From Stigmatella ashevillena (GTDB lineage: Bacteria; Myxococcota; Myxococcia; Myxococcales; Myxococcaceae): a stretch of 64,000 nucleotides of DNA. Where the stretch lies: assembly GCF_028368975.1 (NCBI RefSeq), contig NZ_JAQNDM010000002.1, forward strand, positions 8,922,425 through 8,986,424, read 5' to 3'. Both the position numbers and the translations under genes were made by a program. The notes under the pieces are model-generated. The model ran no database searches and was not told where the DNA came from. It worked only from the letters and a program-made list of their open reading frames with translations. Positions 42,356 to 48,419 of the stretch are shown here, one piece after another (positions within the stretch are counted from its first letter, which is position 1; every line of letters begins with the position of its first letter).

Positions 42356-43690
42356 GTGATATCCCCTGACCCCTCCGATGAGAAGGTCCTGATTCACGTT
42401 CAGAAGCAGAGCTATTTCAACGGCTCGCTCTACCTGCTCGGTGGATTGGCTTTCCACTGTCTGGTGTCGGGGACGCTGCCGCTGGGGCTCGTCGTCTGGG
42501 AATTGGTGCTCGCAGGACTCTTCCTGGTGCTGGGCGTCACCATGGGCATGAGAGGGTTCCCGCCCGAGCGCGTGGGGGTGATCGGCGGAGGTCTGGGGAT
42601 GGTGTCCGCCTTGCTGTTCGTTCACTGGAGTGGCGGACCGTTCAGTCCCTACATGCACATGTTTGGCGCCCTGCCGTTCATGCTGGCGCTGTTTACTCCT
42701 GGCAGCAGCCAGCCGACGCTCGTGAGTGGCAGCGCATCGCTCGTCGCGTTGTCGCTCGTGAGTGGGCTGGCCGGGATGCCGCCGCGCGTGATGATGCTCC
42801 AGGCCTTTTCCAGCGGGTTGCTCCTGGTGCTGGCATTCACGGGCTCCCGCGTGTACCAGCGGGTGATCAGCGCACAGCGAGAGGCCCACCGGGCGCGGCT
42901 CCAGGCAGTGGAGCAACTCGCGGAGAGCGAGCGTCTGAGGGGGCGCGCCGAGAGGGAGCGCGCCGAGGTGGAGCGGCTGGTGTTGATGGGTCAATTGGCC
43001 GCGGGAGTCGCGCATGAGGTGAACAACCCTCTGGCCTTTGTGAAGGCCAACCTGAACTTCCTCGAGCGCAAAGGGACAGGCGATGGCTCTCCCCTGGACA
43101 GGGCGGAGTTCCGGAGCGTGCTGCGAGAGACCCTGGAGGGGGTGGCACGCATCCAGCAGATCGTCACGGACCTGAAGGATTTCTCGCGTGCGGGGACCCT
43201 GGACGACAAGGAGGGGGGCGCGTTGGAGGACGCCCTGCGAGAGGCGGGCCGTCTGGCCTCGGTGCGCCTGGGTGCGGGCTCTCAGGTGGAACTGGAACTC
43301 GAGCCGGGGCTGCCCGCGGTGCGGCTGGGCCAGCGGCACATGGTGCAGGTGATGGTGAACCTGTTGCTCAATGCGGCGGACGCGGTGGAGCAGGCGGAGC
43401 CCCCCCGTTCCCCCCAGATTTCGGTGCGCGCGCGGCGGGTGGGGGAGGGGGTGGACCTCTTCGTGGAGGACAACGGGCCGGGCATCCCCCCGGAGGTCCT
43501 GCCCCGGCTCTTCGAGCCCTTTTTCACCACGAAACCTCCCGGCAAGGGCACGGGGCTGGGGCTTGCCCTGTGCCGGGAGTACATCGCGCGGGTGGGGGGC
43601 ACCCTGCGCGCGGAGAACCGAGCCGGAGGCGGTGCCCGGTTCATCCTGCGGTTGCCCCTGGCGGTGGAGTCCGGAGCCATCAGGGTGTGA
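42356..43690 (+). CDS. Membrane sensor histidine kinase
   Basis: A 444-residue inner-membrane kinase starting at GTG 42356. Residues about 24-165 hold around six hydrophobic helices with short loops and no periplasmic domain, so it probably senses within the membrane. A coiled linker (170-210) leads to the dimerisation/phospho-acceptor domain with His220 in Ala-Ala-Gly-Val-Ala-His-Glu-Val-Asn-Asn-Pro-Leu. The ATPase domain has Asn-Leu-Leu-Leu-Asn-Ala-Ala-Asp-Ala, Asp-Asn-Gly-Pro-Gly-Ile and Gly-Thr-Gly-Leu-Gly-Leu. The His-Glu-Val-Asn-Asn-Pro type is usual for NtrB-like family kinases, which often pair with enhancer-binding proteins. No response regulator is adjacent (orphan). The stop is 84 bp before the DUF2381-type gene. 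Confidence 0.9.
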   Translation: MISPDPSDEKVLIHVQKQSYFNGSLYLLGGLAFHCLVSGTLPLGLVVWELVLAGLFLVLGVTMGMRGFPPERVGVIGGGLGMVSALLFVHWSGGPFSPYMHMFGALPFMLALFTPGSSQPTLVSGSASLVALSLVSGLAGMPPRVMMLQAFSSGLLLVLAFTGSRVYQRVISAQREAHRARLQAVEQLAESERLRGRAERERAEVERLVLMGQLAAGVAHEVNNPLAFVKANLNFLERKGTGDGSPLDRAEFRSVLRETLEGVARIQQIVTDLKDFSRAGTLDDKEGGALEDALREAGRLASVRLGAGSQVELELEPGLPAVRLGQRHMVQVMVNLLLNAADAVEQAEPPRSPQISVRARRVGEGVDLFVEDNGPGIPPEVLPRLFEPFFTTKPPGKGTGLGLALCREYIARVGGTLRAENRAGGGARFILRLPLAVESGAIRV

Positions 43691-43774
43691 AGGGGAGTCT
43701 GCCGTTGCAGGGGTGACCCCCGAAGGACGTCTGGCGCCTTGTGGTAGGGTGGTGACCTCGGAGGTTCTACGCCC

Positions 43775-44656
43775 CTGGCCCTACCCAAGACCTCGCTGTT
43801 CCTCGCCCTCTGCCTGCTGGTGGTGGGCCCCGCCGCCGCCCAGTCGCCCGCCCGCCAGCGTCAGGATCGGCGCGCCTCACTGCCCACCACTGACTCCGAG
43901 GCCTTGTCCGAGCTGTACGTGGCGGCGGGCAATCTCACCACGGTGACGTTCAACGGGCCCCTGGACCGGGACAGCCTGGTGGTGGATCGCACGCGCTTCA
44001 GGTGGATGGACGTCGGCGAACGGATGCTCGTGCTGGAGCCCTTCACAGACCTGGGCCCCGGTGAGCGGCTCATTTTGCAGATCCGCTTCAAGGACAAAGC
44101 TCAGCCTGCGAAAGCCATCCTCGCCGTCGTCTCCAAGGCGGACGTGATGGACGGCAAGGTGGAGATGGACCGGCGAGCGAATACTCCTGAGGCGCTGCTC
44201 GCGGCCCTTGCTCAGAAGGAAGTGGAGTTGGAGGAACTCAAGGCTCGGAGCGCGGTCAGTGGCCCCGCGAGCCTCGTCCTCTCGGGGTGGTTCACCCAGT
44301 TCACGAAGCCTGTTTTGCTTACGCAAAGGGAGGCTCCGGCTGACGGCAGTGGTTTGGCGGTCATGGAGAGCATTGGCTATGGCGGGTCGTTCTCGTCAGT
44401 GGTGGCCATTGAGTTGCAGAACCTCGCCGCTCAGACGCCGTGGACTTTGGGACAGGCCCGCCTGACGAGCCCTCAAGGCATTCCACCCAAGGTGCTTTCG
44501 GTGCAGATGAAACCAGAGCCACTGGCCCCAGGAGAGAAGGGGGTAGTGGTAGTGGAGGTGGCGACGGCACCGTGGGCGTCCGGCAAGGAATTCAGCGTGG
44601 AACTCGTAGAGGCCGGCGGTCCGCGGCGCCTCTCCGTCAACCTGTTTGCGAAGTAG
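43775..44656 (+). CDS. DUF2381-type secreted protein, probable CTG start
   Basis: A 293-residue exported protein resembling the myxobacterial DUF2381 paralogous family, which usually sits next to a Ser/Thr kinase, as here (12 bp apart). The only standard start, GTG 43820, would cut off the signal peptide. A CTG at 43775 lies 10 bases after GGAGG and opens a proper signal peptide (Leu-Ala-Leu-Pro-Lys-Thr-Ser-Leu-Phe-Leu, Ala-Gln end). The frame closes at a TAG just before, at 43745. The mature protein is beta-rich with a helical segment of Glu/Leu repeats (Lys-Glu-Val-Glu-Leu-Glu-Glu-Leu-Lys). Its function is unknown; pairing with the kinase suggests a shared signalling or export system. Confidence 0.72.
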   Translation: MALPKTSLFLALCLLVVGPAAAQSPARQRQDRRASLPTTDSEALSELYVAAGNLTTVTFNGPLDRDSLVVDRTRFRWMDVGERMLVLEPFTDLGPGERLILQIRFKDKAQPAKAILAVVSKADVMDGKVEMDRRANTPEALLAALAQKEVELEELKARSAVSGPASLVLSGWFTQFTKPVLLTQREAPADGSGLAVMESIGYGGSFSSVVAIELQNLAAQTPWTLGQARLTSPQGIPPKVLSVQMKPEPLAPGEKGVVVVEVATAPWASGKEFSVELVEAGGPRRLSVNLFAK

Positions 44657-44668
44657 GAAGCCCCGCCC

Positions 44669-46471
44669 ATGACGATGGACGCTTTTCACCCAGACCACCT
44701 CAAGCCAGGACAAATGGTGGGCCCCTGGCGCATTGTCGAGTCGCTGGGCAGCGGCAACTTCGGACACGCCTTCAAGGCGGAGCGGGAGGGAGATCTCTTC
44801 ACGCTGAAGATGGCGGTGCGGCCTGCACCGGACCTGCCCCAAGAGACGCCCGAGAGGACCCTGGAAGAGCGGCAGGTGGACGGGCGCATGTGCCACGAGG
44901 CCGCTGTCCTCATGGCCAACACGAGCCATCCTGGCCTGCCTCACCTGCGTGCCATGGACAGGTGGCCTCATCCCATCCGGGGTTACCTCTACATCGTTAC
45001 TGACTACGTGCCGGGCGGCCCTTTCCACGAATGGCGAGAGCAGACCCGGCCCACGGCTGCCCAACTGGTGGACATCTTCATCGACGTGGTGCGCGCGGTG
45101 GCCCTGCTGCACCGCCGCGGCATCCTTATCCGGGACTTCAAGAGCGAGCATGTCATCGTCAACCCCAACGACCACAAGCCGGTCATCGTGGACATGGGAA
45201 GTGCCTGGCTGCCGGGGGGCTCCACGCTCACCGTGGGGTTGGCGCCTGGAACACCCCATGCGTTGCCACCGGAGTGCATCGCCTTCATTCGCGAGGGGGC
45301 ATGGAAGGAGGGGGCTCGGTTTGGTGCGAACGCGGCGGGAGACCTCTACCAACTCGGCGTCTTCATCTACGAGGCCCTCACGGACCACTGGCCCTTCGAT
45401 CCGCGGATGTCCCAGGATGAGCTGCTGGCCGCCATCGAGACCGTCATTCCCCGCGCGCCTCATCGCATCAACCCCGAGGTTCCCGAGGCGCTGAGCCGCA
45501 TTGCGCTGAAGCTGCTCGAGAAGCGGCCGGAGGACCGCTACCAGAGCGCCGAGGGCTTGCTCCAAGCGCTCTGGGATGCAGCGAAGGAGCGCTCCAAGCC
45601 AGCCTGGAAGGTGTCTCTGGAACTTCCGGCGGGGGGGCCGGCTCCTGTGAGCCAGGAAGAGGTGGAGGAGCGCCGCCTCCAGAAGCAGGAAGCGGAACGC
45701 AAGGCGAAGGAGGTTCGCGAGCAGGGGACACAAGAGCTTTCACACGAGGAAGCCTTGGCGCAACTCTCCGTTCTCACTCAGGAGATCCAGAACCAGTGGC
45801 GGTTGGTTCAGGAGAAGGCTGCCCGGAGCAAGACGAGATGGCGGAGAATCGCCCTCGTGGTGGGGCCGCTCTTGCTGGTTCTGGGTCTCTTCGCCGCCCG
45901 GCAGGTGTGGCTTACTCCCGTCCCGGCATTCCCCACTGCATCCGAGAAAGGAAGTTCGTCCGTGTCCACCTTCAGCAACTCCCGGCCCATCAGAATCGTT
46001 TCCGTCTGGCTGTGCGCCGCGTTCAGCATCGGGTGCCCGGCGGCCCAGGTGCGGCCCATGCCGGGGGATTGTCCCCTGGAGACAGCCGAGAGGATGAGGG
46101 AAATGGGCTTCTTAGAGCGTGGCGGCAACGAGGTCATCATCGACATCCACCAACCCGGCACGCGGACTCAGGCTGGCATCTATCGCGAAGGAAAGGTCGT
46201 CGGCCGGGTGGTGACCACATCGTACAAGGGAGCTCTGCCCGATGGGACTCTCCTCTACGGGCAGCTCTGGACCGAGAATATTTTCAAGAGGGGGGAGGAG
46301 GCAGTGCTCGGCCGCTATACCGAGGCACTTCTGCCGGATGGGCGCCGCATCCCTGTTTGCTTCTCGTTGGGAGATGACACCGGGCTGACCACCAAGATGG
46401 ATGGCTCGAAGCCCGGCCAAGCCCGTCTTCAGCGCTCCTGGGTGGTCCGGGCCGTCGAGATATGGCCGTGA
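44669..46471 (+). CDS. Ser/Thr kinase with altered active site and fused exported tail
   Basis: A 600-residue protein. Residues 15-305 are a protein kinase: Gly-Ser-Gly-Asn-Phe-Gly loop (27-32), Lys47, catalytic loop Ile-Arg-Asp156-Phe-Lys-Ser-Glu-His (His-Arg-Asp is Ile-Arg-Asp, and the usual Asn is His161) and Asp175-Met-Gly in place of Asp-Phe-Gly. Glu-rich coiled coil (330-390) leads to a membrane helix (393-412). A linker then reaches a second hydrophobic stretch (441-456) ending in Cys, followed by a 145-residue beta domain. That last part has its own ribosome site and GTG in frame (45947-45964), so it may also be made alone as a lipoprotein. It starts 12 bp after the DUF2381-type gene, presumably one operon. 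Activity of the kinase is uncertain. Confidence 0.85.
   Translation: MTMDAFHPDHLKPGQMVGPWRIVESLGSGNFGHAFKAEREGDLFTLKMAVRPAPDLPQETPERTLEERQVDGRMCHEAAVLMANTSHPGLPHLRAMDRWPHPIRGYLYIVTDYVPGGPFHEWREQTRPTAAQLVDIFIDVVRAVALLHRRGILIRDFKSEHVIVNPNDHKPVIVDMGSAWLPGGSTLTVGLAPGTPHALPPECIAFIREGAWKEGARFGANAAGDLYQLGVFIYEALTDHWPFDPRMSQDELLAAIETVIPRAPHRINPEVPEALSRIALKLLEKRPEDRYQSAEGLLQALWDAAKERSKPAWKVSLELPAGGPAPVSQEEVEERRLQKQEAERKAKEVREQGTQELSHEEALAQLSVLTQEIQNQWRLVQEKAARSKTRWRRIALVVGPLLLVLGLFAARQVWLTPVPAFPTASEKGSSSVSTFSNSRPIRIVSVWLCAAFSIGCPAAQVRPMPGDCPLETAERMREMGFLERGGNEVIIDIHQPGTRTQAGIYREGKVVGRVVTTSYKGALPDGTLLYGQLWTENIFKRGEEAVLGRYTEALLPDGRRIPVCFSLGDDTGLTTKMDGSKPGQARLQRSWVVRAVEIWP
45947..45964 (+). other. Internal ribosome site and GTG start within the kinase gene
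   Basis: AAAGGAAG (45947-45954) is followed after 7 bases by an in-frame GTG (45962-45964). Translation from here gives 169 residues beginning with a short basic segment (Asn-Ser-Arg-Pro-Ile-Arg), a hydrophobic core (Ile-Val-Ser-Val-Trp-Leu-Cys-Ala-Ala-Phe-Ser-Ile-Gly) and Cys: a plausible export signal of lipoprotein type, although the lipobox is imperfect. Confidence 0.5.
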
Positions 46472-47318: not shown

Positions 47319-48419
47319 ATGGACCCCACCGTCCCAGCAGAGTTTCTCCGTCAGCGAGACTCAATCATCGACGATTGGTTCAGACGGGTGAGCGAGCGCC
47401 CGGTTGCTCGTTCTCTTCCGCGCAAATCGATCCTGAACAATGTTCCTGGCTTGGTGGACCAGATCATCGAGGCGTTGGCCAAGACAGCCGATCTCCAGGG
47501 GGGCGCGCTGAGCATTCCGAGAGAAATCGCTGAAGAGCATGGCGAAAGCCGCCTCGACCTGGGTTATGGCCTGATGGAGTTGGGAGAAGAGTACAACTCG
47601 CTTCGGGATGCCTTCCTGAGCGTCCTGGACTCGGCCGGGATTGCCCTGAACAACGCGACCGCGAGCGCCTTGCATGGGGCGATTGATCAGGCCCACCGGG
47701 CAGGGGTGGAGCATTATATCCAGTGTCGGGAAGAGCGGCTCAGGGAGCGCCAGTCGGACTTTCTGGCCCGGCTCGTCCATGACTTCCGTTCCCCCCTGAG
47801 CACGGTCCTGACCAGCGTCGAGCTCATCCGGAGGGGAGATTCCCCCAGCGAGGGGCTCTCCCGGAACCTGGAGCGCATCGAGCGTGCTACGCGGCGGTTG
47901 CTTTTGCTCATCGAGGGGCAACTGGCCACCGAAGCGGCGCTTGCTGGCAATCTCCAGTTCCAGGTGGTGGAGGTGAATCTCTCCGAGGTGGCTGAGGATG
48001 TGCACGCCATCGTGCAGACTCGCGCGGAGGAGAAGGGGATTGTCCTGAAGGAAGATGTTCCCGCTGGGATTCAGCTCAGGACAGACCGTCTCTTGCTCGG
48101 CCAGGTGCTGCAAAACCTCGTCGACAATGCAATCAAGTACACCTCCCAGGGGGCCGTGATGGTCCAGGTCCGCGAGGTAGGTGGCGAAGTGTTCATCACG
48201 GTCGAGGATACCGGACGAGGCATCGCACCCGAGCTGCTCCCCGTCATCTTCGACATGTACAAGCGCAGCGAGCACGTCTCCCCGGGGCGGGGTGTGGGAC
48301 TGGCCGTTGTGAAGACCATCGTGTCTTTTCTGGGCGGGACGATCCACGCGGAGAGCGAGCCGGGCAAGGGCAGCCGTTTCATCGTCTCCCTGCCGAGAGA
48401 GTATTCCGCGCGTTCATGA
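47319..48419 (+). CDS. Histidine kinase with RsbRD-type N-terminal domain
   Basis: A 366-residue soluble kinase. The N-terminal 135 residues are helical and match the globin-like RsbR/RsbRD N-terminal domain (Asp-Asp-Trp-Phe-Arg-Arg-Val ... Asn-Asn-Val-Pro-Gly-Leu-Val), a sensor domain of stress signalling proteins. The phospho-acceptor is His154 in Leu-Val-His-Asp-Phe-Arg-Ser-Pro-Leu. The ATPase domain has Asn-Leu-Val-Asp-Asn-Ala-Ile-Lys-Tyr, Asp-Thr-Gly-Arg-Gly-Ile and Gly-Arg-Gly-Val-Gly-Leu-Ala. No membrane segment. It stands alone after the pseudogene and ends facing the carboxypeptidase, so it is an orphan kinase. The ligand or signal is unknown. Confidence 0.88.
   Translation: MDPTVPAEFLRQRDSIIDDWFRRVSERPVARSLPRKSILNNVPGLVDQIIEALAKTADLQGGALSIPREIAEEHGESRLDLGYGLMELGEEYNSLRDAFLSVLDSAGIALNNATASALHGAIDQAHRAGVEHYIQCREERLRERQSDFLARLVHDFRSPLSTVLTSVELIRRGDSPSEGLSRNLERIERATRRLLLLIEGQLATEAALAGNLQFQVVEVNLSEVAEDVHAIVQTRAEEKGIVLKEDVPAGIQLRTDRLLLGQVLQNLVDNAIKYTSQGAVMVQVREVGGEVFITVEDTGRGIAPELLPVIFDMYKRSEHVSPGRGVGLAVVKTIVSFLGGTIHAESEPGKGSRFIVSLPREYSARS

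Follow-up and report, generated by a model that had tools for sequence, protein, structure and literature searches.

HrcQ has an internal start whose product, the C-terminal region, binds to full-length HrcQ (PMC8553256), and a study in Salmonella discusses further internal-start pairs, SsaQ among them, and also cites CheA and IF2 (infB), in which in-frame alternative starts give two functional forms (PMC11005335). The gene analysed here resembles both sets of examples: as with SctQ, HrcQ and SsaQ, there is one gene with one frame, in which an internal start would yield the C-terminal region as a separate protein; as with CheA and IF2, the alternative starts lie in frame and two functional forms would result. 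Whereas SctQ, HrcQ and SsaQ are part of the cytoplasmic sorting platform of type III secretion, the short form here carries a predicted lipoprotein signal peptide and would end up in another compartment. Two further differences are that the long form here is a kinase and that many paralogues within one genome share the arrangement. To our knowledge, no export signal is gained by the short forms of CheA, IF2 or SctQ/HrcQ/SsaQ. We regard HrcQ as the nearest experimental parallel to the arrangement proposed here.

A second likeness is to type IV secretion systems (T4SS), in which the gene for VirB9 is followed by that for VirB10, a protein with a cytoplasmic N-terminus, one membrane helix, a linker and a C-terminal beta domain. 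At the locus described here a VirB9-like gene likewise precedes a VirB10-like one, the long form is laid out like VirB10, and the predicted folds of the two products, a DUF2381 protein and the tail of the kinase, resemble those in the T4SS outer-membrane core complex (for example PDB 6gyb, 3jqo, 8rt6, 7muc). Unlike VirB10, the long form carries a kinase where VirB10 has its N-terminus, and a lipid anchor is predicted for the VirB10-like part; and, unlike in T4SS, searches of the genome that contains the locus matched neither the TrbI/VirB10 sequence family (PF03743; matched in 2 of 14 control genomes) nor, at E 0.001, the VirB4-type ATPase PF03135 (1 of 14 control genomes). Finally, the long form shares with PASTA-type kinases (PknB/Stk1, NF033483) a cytoplasmic kinase, one helix and a C-terminal part beyond it, but its C-terminal domain is different, and it scores 89.8 bits against NF033483 vs a cut-off of 450.

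The gene lies in a 64,000-nucleotide stretch of Stigmatella ashevillena DNA, the whole of which we call the window. As set out below, we consider it likely that it yields two products from one frame, the shorter being encoded by a ‘gene within a gene’.

A kinase gene with a candidate internal start

All features described here lie on the forward strand of the window. The open frame 44669..46471 encodes the long form, a 600-residue membrane Ser/Thr kinase with a tail. The first-pass annotation had read into this single frame a Ser/Thr kinase, a membrane helix, a ribosome site followed by a 7-base spacer and an in-frame GTG, and a signal-peptide-like segment that ends in Cys and leads into a 145-residue domain, and each of these elements was recovered. 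In a Pfam profile search, PF00069 (Pkinase) matched residues 21–299 of the 600 codons (44729..45565) with E 3.4e-21; Lys47, Asp156 and Asp175 are invariant in alignment A2, and the domain can be classed as a Hanks-type Ser/Thr kinase, with the Lys, the catalytic Asp and the DFG Asp all present. The catalytic loop (residues 154–161, 45128-45151) reads IRDFKSEH vs the usual HRDxKxxN; His takes the place of the Asn in the window copy and its close paralogues, L032, L290 and L293 (A2) keep the Asn, and kinase activity may therefore be altered. An E/K/Q-rich stretch, the putative coiled coil of the first-pass annotation, is missing from L290 and L293, the two genus-g3 rows of A2, and is therefore no family-wide feature.

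Beyond the kinase domain lies a hydrophobic membrane helix, TM1, which spans residues 393–412 or thereabouts (45845..45904) and is positive on its N-side; the top hydrophobic 17-mer before the linker reaches KD 1.6 in 114 of 115 representative relatives. The linker that follows is variable and, in many relatives, Pro-rich. It contains the Shine-Dalgarno (SD)-like sequence AAAGGAAG (45947..45954), the spacer TTCGTCC (45955-45961) and, in frame as codon 432, a GTG (45962..45964). Lys427-Gly428 (AAA GGA), which form part of the SD-like sequence, are invariant in A2 amid the variable linker. The codons after the GTG encode MSTFSNSRPIRIVSVWLCAAFSIG and then Cys456 (46034-46036), from which 145 residues run to the end of the frame. 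On the strength of codon-level conservation, mRNA unfolding and a lipobox pattern, the short form (45962..46471) is predicted to be a 169-residue lipoprotein precursor, consisting of a 24-residue signal peptide that ends in FSIG directly before the Cys (45962..46033; lipobox pattern and charge bias) and a tail domain of 145 residues counted from the lipobox Cys (46034..46468), for which structure prediction gives a beta domain like the VirB10 C-terminal domain (CTD). No Pfam or NCBIfam entry matches the short form at E up to 1.

Translation from 44669 would thus give a membrane Ser/Thr kinase composed of a cytoplasmic kinase, one helix, the linker and the tail, while the second ribosome site and the GTG at 45962 would give a shorter product whose first 24 residues would act as a lipoprotein signal peptide, so that the same tail domain would also be made as a free, exported, lipid-anchored protein. 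The kinase gene begins 12 bases after the DUF2381 gene (43775..44656), and the pair is flanked by histidine kinase genes (42356-43690 and 47319-48419), one of them with an RsbRD_N domain. Alternatively, a promoter within the kinase gene could give rise to a short transcript of its own on which most internal initiation takes place, and the tail would then be regulated apart from the kinase. The 12-base gap suggests one operon but is neutral on an extra internal promoter, and we regard such a transcript as an unlikely main source of the short form.

Fused and stand-alone copies of the tail

Searching the window's genome with the tail (tblastn, E up to 10) gave 31 matches in 30 places: 21 fused to kinase-length frames, 8 short frames and one fragment (L024), which accounts for two of the matches. 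L024 (G000:C2:5623104-5623352) is a decayed copy in which there are a TAG and a change of frame. Of the 8 short copies, seven were aligned with the fused tails in alignment A1, the more distant L028 being left out. Across the phylum, 70 of 195 genomes had tail matches, of which 65 (one with a weak match) belong to the same family as the window; the other five had one weak hit each, with E 3e-4 to 6e-3. At least 20 genomes of the family had no tail match, and the number of matches counted per genome reached 55.

The data set comprises 319 loci, yielding 215 fused frames (194 of them unique), where ‘fused’ means that the open frame has 330 residues or more ahead of the tail, and 110 short frames. 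It is a sample and not a census, as 140 of the fetched stretches were picked for long frames among the matches listed. Counts were made on 115 cluster representatives of the 194 fused genes (3-mer Jaccard not above 0.30). Elsewhere the tail is a separate gene, a point that the first-pass annotation had wished to see checked: there are 95 unique short frames that represent stand-alone tails. One relative's copy, L331, has a 377-codon frame around the tail only, with an EKGSATV stretch and the tail kept; given that frame length, its kinase part is probably frame-broken.

To relate the two states, a FastTree tree was made from 115 fused and 57 stand-alone tails (172 in all), 38 of the 95 stand-alone tails having been dropped as too similar or of odd length. 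At least 4 changes between the fused and stand-alone states are needed on this tree, which makes the fused state an old one that rarely changes. In a search of the fetched loci, which at most of them covered 1500 bases of flank, 1 of 95 stand-alone tails (L134) had a kinase frame immediately before it. In L134 (1345-1350) a TAG directly after the internal GTG breaks the fused frame, a nonsense change. The absence of stops inside fused frames is no evidence here, because ‘fused’ was defined as an open frame. A recent loss of a stop codon is not supported as the origin of the window's gene, given at least 4 state changes over 172 tails and the one nonsense case among 95 stand-alone tails.

The tail also keeps company with DUF2381 in both states. 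Stand-alone tails directly follow a DUF2381 gene in 57 of 95 cases, and DUF2381 precedes fused genes in 86 of 194, or in 66 of the 103 that have at least 400 bases upstream; these are undercounts, because one query and short flanks were used. Since stand-alone tails occur next to DUF2381, it is plausible that the tail was once a separate gene.

Conservation of the internal site and start

Taken alone, the internal site of the window copy is suggestive at most: the linker acquires a strict site in 4.8% of trials when synonymous codons are drawn at random for its fixed amino acids, and in 1.5% when its codons are shuffled. Its recurrence across the family makes it more than chance. Within the window's genome, 18 of the 21 fused copies have an SD core of at least five bases placed 9–11 bases before an in-frame linker GTG; L023 and L040 have four-base cores and L038 has none.

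For the family as a whole we defined a strict site as AAGGA, AGGAG or GGAGG at a spacing of 5–9, measured from the end of the full AAGGAGG, before an in-frame ATG, GTG or TTG that lies 14–60 codons before the Cys. Such a site precedes the tail in 70 of the 115 representatives, vs 37.2±4.0 after synonymous recoding with the codon usage of the kinase part (maximum 51 in 500 runs), 29.1±4.1 with that of the linkers themselves (maximum 42), and 7, 7, 8, 11 and 13 in five control windows; the representatives share ancestry, and counts and z-values overstate their independence. Under a relaxed definition a site is present in 104 of 115, vs 31–47 in the control windows, leaving 11 without even a relaxed site.

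Codon choice at the expected start position tells the same way. With the spacing from an SD core set at 7–8, a start codon occupies the in-frame position in 60 of 112 cases vs 24 of 324 in kinase-part controls. Where the codon at this position encodes Val, 45 codons are GTG and one is not (59% GTG expected); where it encodes Leu, 5 are TTG and 4 are not (13% TTG expected). When sites were placed by a rule that uses the protein alone, which was possible in 87 representatives, the codons there were Val (GTG 56, other 3), Met (13), Leu (TTG 8, other 5) and Ile (2), so that 77 of the 87 are GTG, ATG or TTG; in 7 of the 10 exceptions a GTG or ATG follows within three codons, the rule having picked a neighbouring codon. 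On the tail tree, at least 15 interchanges of GTG, ATG and TTG as start codon are needed for the 70 sites (assuming their homology), and the strict site appears or disappears at least 27 times over the 115 representatives.

In addition, the mRNA around the internal start was compared with synonymous recodings of the same amino acids in 42-base windows from the 70 strict-site genes. It is less folded at -15, 0, +12, +24 and +36 (z 4.9, 6.2, 4.8, 5.5 and 2.7), with no such unfolding at -60, -45, -30, +48 and +60 (z -1.0, -1.8, -0.7, 1.5 and -0.9); shared ancestry inflates these z-values, and the flat flanks serve as a control. The window's own gene has a similar dip, with folding energies of -2.9 and -0.3 kcal/mol at 0 and +20, and of -11 to -15 kcal/mol at -80, -60, +40, +60 and +80. 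Codon choice keeps the mRNA unfolded around the internal start. With the GTG bias, the switching of start codons and the mRNA unfolding in agreement with the excess of strict sites, the internal site is conserved beyond what the amino acids demand.

According to the first-pass annotation, the idea of an internal start would fall if homologues were always uninterrupted fusions with no conserved GTG or ribosome site and if proteomics showed no short product. The kinase-linked homologues are indeed uninterrupted, with rare exceptions, but most of them keep both the start and the ribosome site.

These findings bear on two further explanations. One holds that the gene is the relic of a fusion, in which a tail gene lost its separation from the upstream kinase and the ribosome site, start and signal peptide are leftovers, so that the long kinase is the only product. 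Stand-alone tails with signal-peptide-like N-termini do exist beside DUF2381, and 45 of the 115 fused representatives have no strict site, as a relic might lead one to expect. However, in a fused state as old as the tree implies leftovers should decay, and the site persists within linkers that are otherwise variable; GTG, ATG and TTG interchange, sites exceed expectation at the level of codons, and the mRNA is unfolded. We therefore think a relic improbable. Instead, since the fusion is stable and the internal start has been kept within it, both products appear to be under selection.

On the other explanation, the conserved K-E-G-x-V-K stretch would serve the protein itself, perhaps as a motif in the linker for a protease or for docking, and would look like a ribosome site as a by-product of Lys, Glu and Gly codons. 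Amino acids do contribute, since on their own they give a strict site in the recoded linkers far more often than is seen in control windows. In a wide test, too, the best SD energy anywhere in the stretch differed from synonymous recodings at p<0.05 in just 6 of 115 representatives (mean -8.05 observed vs -7.19±0.30 recoded), a weak result because the K-E-G residues themselves encode SD-like sequence, and the test was replaced by the fixed-spacing tests above. Those tests are what a protein motif fails to account for, namely the number of strict sites, the 45:1 preference for GTG among Val codons at the correct spacing, the 5 of 9 Leu codons that are TTG, the start codons at 77 of the 87 protein-defined sites (with a GTG or ATG close by most exceptions) and mRNA unfolded by codon choice, and we give a mere protein motif very little credence.

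Putative export signal, predicted folds and possible roles of the two proposed products

Lipobox patterns of the PROSITE type are permissive, asking for Ala, Gly or Ser at -1, the Cys, and an uncharged stretch before it. This pattern is present in the window copy, in 90 of 115 fused tails and in 83 of 95 stand-alone tails, vs 9 of the 775 other Cys residues of the same fused proteins; position -1 is Gly, Ala or Ser in all 115 fused tails and in 94 of 95 stand-alone ones. The Leu (or Val/Ile) that a strict lipobox has at -3 is absent from the window copy, which has Ser there; Leu occupies this position in 19 of 115 fused representatives, and many tails depart from the strict lipobox.

The fused form had also been credited with an odd topology, and the charges bear this out. 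TM1 and the second hydrophobic segment are each more positive on the N-side than on the C-side in 103 of 115 representatives; going by these charges, each should insert from the cytoplasmic side, a demand that a single chain can hardly meet for both. A tail started separately would resolve the conflict. The remaining explanation for a free tail, cleavage of the long form by signal peptidase II or another protease near the lipobox in place of internal initiation, could draw on the widespread lipobox pattern but is hardly credible, since by established topology rules two N-side-positive segments would leave the second one on the wrong side of the membrane for lipoprotein processing, and since the ribosome site and the unfolded mRNA would go unexplained. 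Of the two origins proposed in the first pass, fusion by stop loss, as a recent event, is not supported, and a locus with a long kinase and a free lipoprotein is favoured by conservation, unfolding and the lipobox. It is most likely that the locus makes both, the production and lipidation of the short form being what we infer from conservation.

Turning to the upstream gene, its product belongs to DUF2381 (TIGR02268 paralogous family; PF09544, E 3.2e-51) and is a predicted VirB9-like exported protein. Its start is likely CTG 43775 rather than GTG 43820: the frame has no ATG, GTG or TTG before the signal-peptide-like stretch, GGAGG at 43760 is followed by CTG 43775, and several relatives have TTGG.ACTAC or CTG.CACTAC at this position, which together suggest that DUF2381 starts with CTG or TTG. 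The window's genome contains 31 DUF2381 matches and the 14 control genomes none, a large expansion.

By sequence, the tail has no PDB match up to E 1, and a Pfam search of 28 tails (E up to 0.1) returned no match to PF03743 and one weak match to PilO (E 0.014). An AlphaFold 2 model of the tail from 13 sequences (pLDDT 87.6, pTM 0.82) resembles the VirB10 C-terminal domain, aligning with VirB10-type CTDs at VIA-align Z 8.9, 8.2, 8.0 and down to 5.2 (14 T4SS entries), vs 3.1 for the next unrelated chain; the best Foldseek E was only 4.7e-3. The DUF2381 model (12 sequences; pLDDT 81.2, two-domain pTM 0.45) has two beta-sandwich domains and a VirB9-type Foldseek match at 6.3e-9, and in this model the protein resembles VirB9. 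Its N-terminal domain aligns with VirB9-type chains at Z 14.3 (1.7 Å over 105 residues), 12.7 and 10.4, while its C-terminal domain is unspecific, unrelated folds matching it at Z up to 9.4; in sequence, a weak TraK_C match in 1 of 12 proteins points the same way. The single PDB chains matched are, we assume, VirB9, VirB10 or their counterparts. In the open-licence literature, we found no paper naming DUF2381 or TIGR02268 and nothing related on VirB10 in myxobacteria.

In light of these models, the VirB10-CTD-like tail and the VirB9-like DUF2381 protein may assemble in the manner of the T4SS outer-membrane core complex, in which case the lipid-anchored short form would supply free tail subunits and the long form would connect the complex, through the envelope, with the kinase in the cytoplasm. 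Extending this to the family, we suggest tentatively, as a possibility somewhat less likely than not, that many members of the window's family carry from some to dozens of stripped-down VirB9/VirB10-like core complexes that are without a recognised secretion machine and act as envelope sensors, and that one gene provides the VirB10-like subunit twice, once tethered across the inner membrane to a Ser/Thr kinase and once lipid-anchored by way of the conserved internal start, with translation setting the ratio between kinase-linked and free subunits.

If the two-product reading is true, a large class of myxobacterial membrane kinases has been misread, each gene hiding an exported lipoprotein that a gene caller listing one product per frame would miss. 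Internal initiation would here change the compartment of a domain, and would do so repeatedly in many paralogues, which would form a natural series for following the evolution of internal starts. It would also connect the VirB9 fold with DUF2381, a family that has no assigned function, and would suggest in concrete terms what these kinases might be sensing through the envelope.
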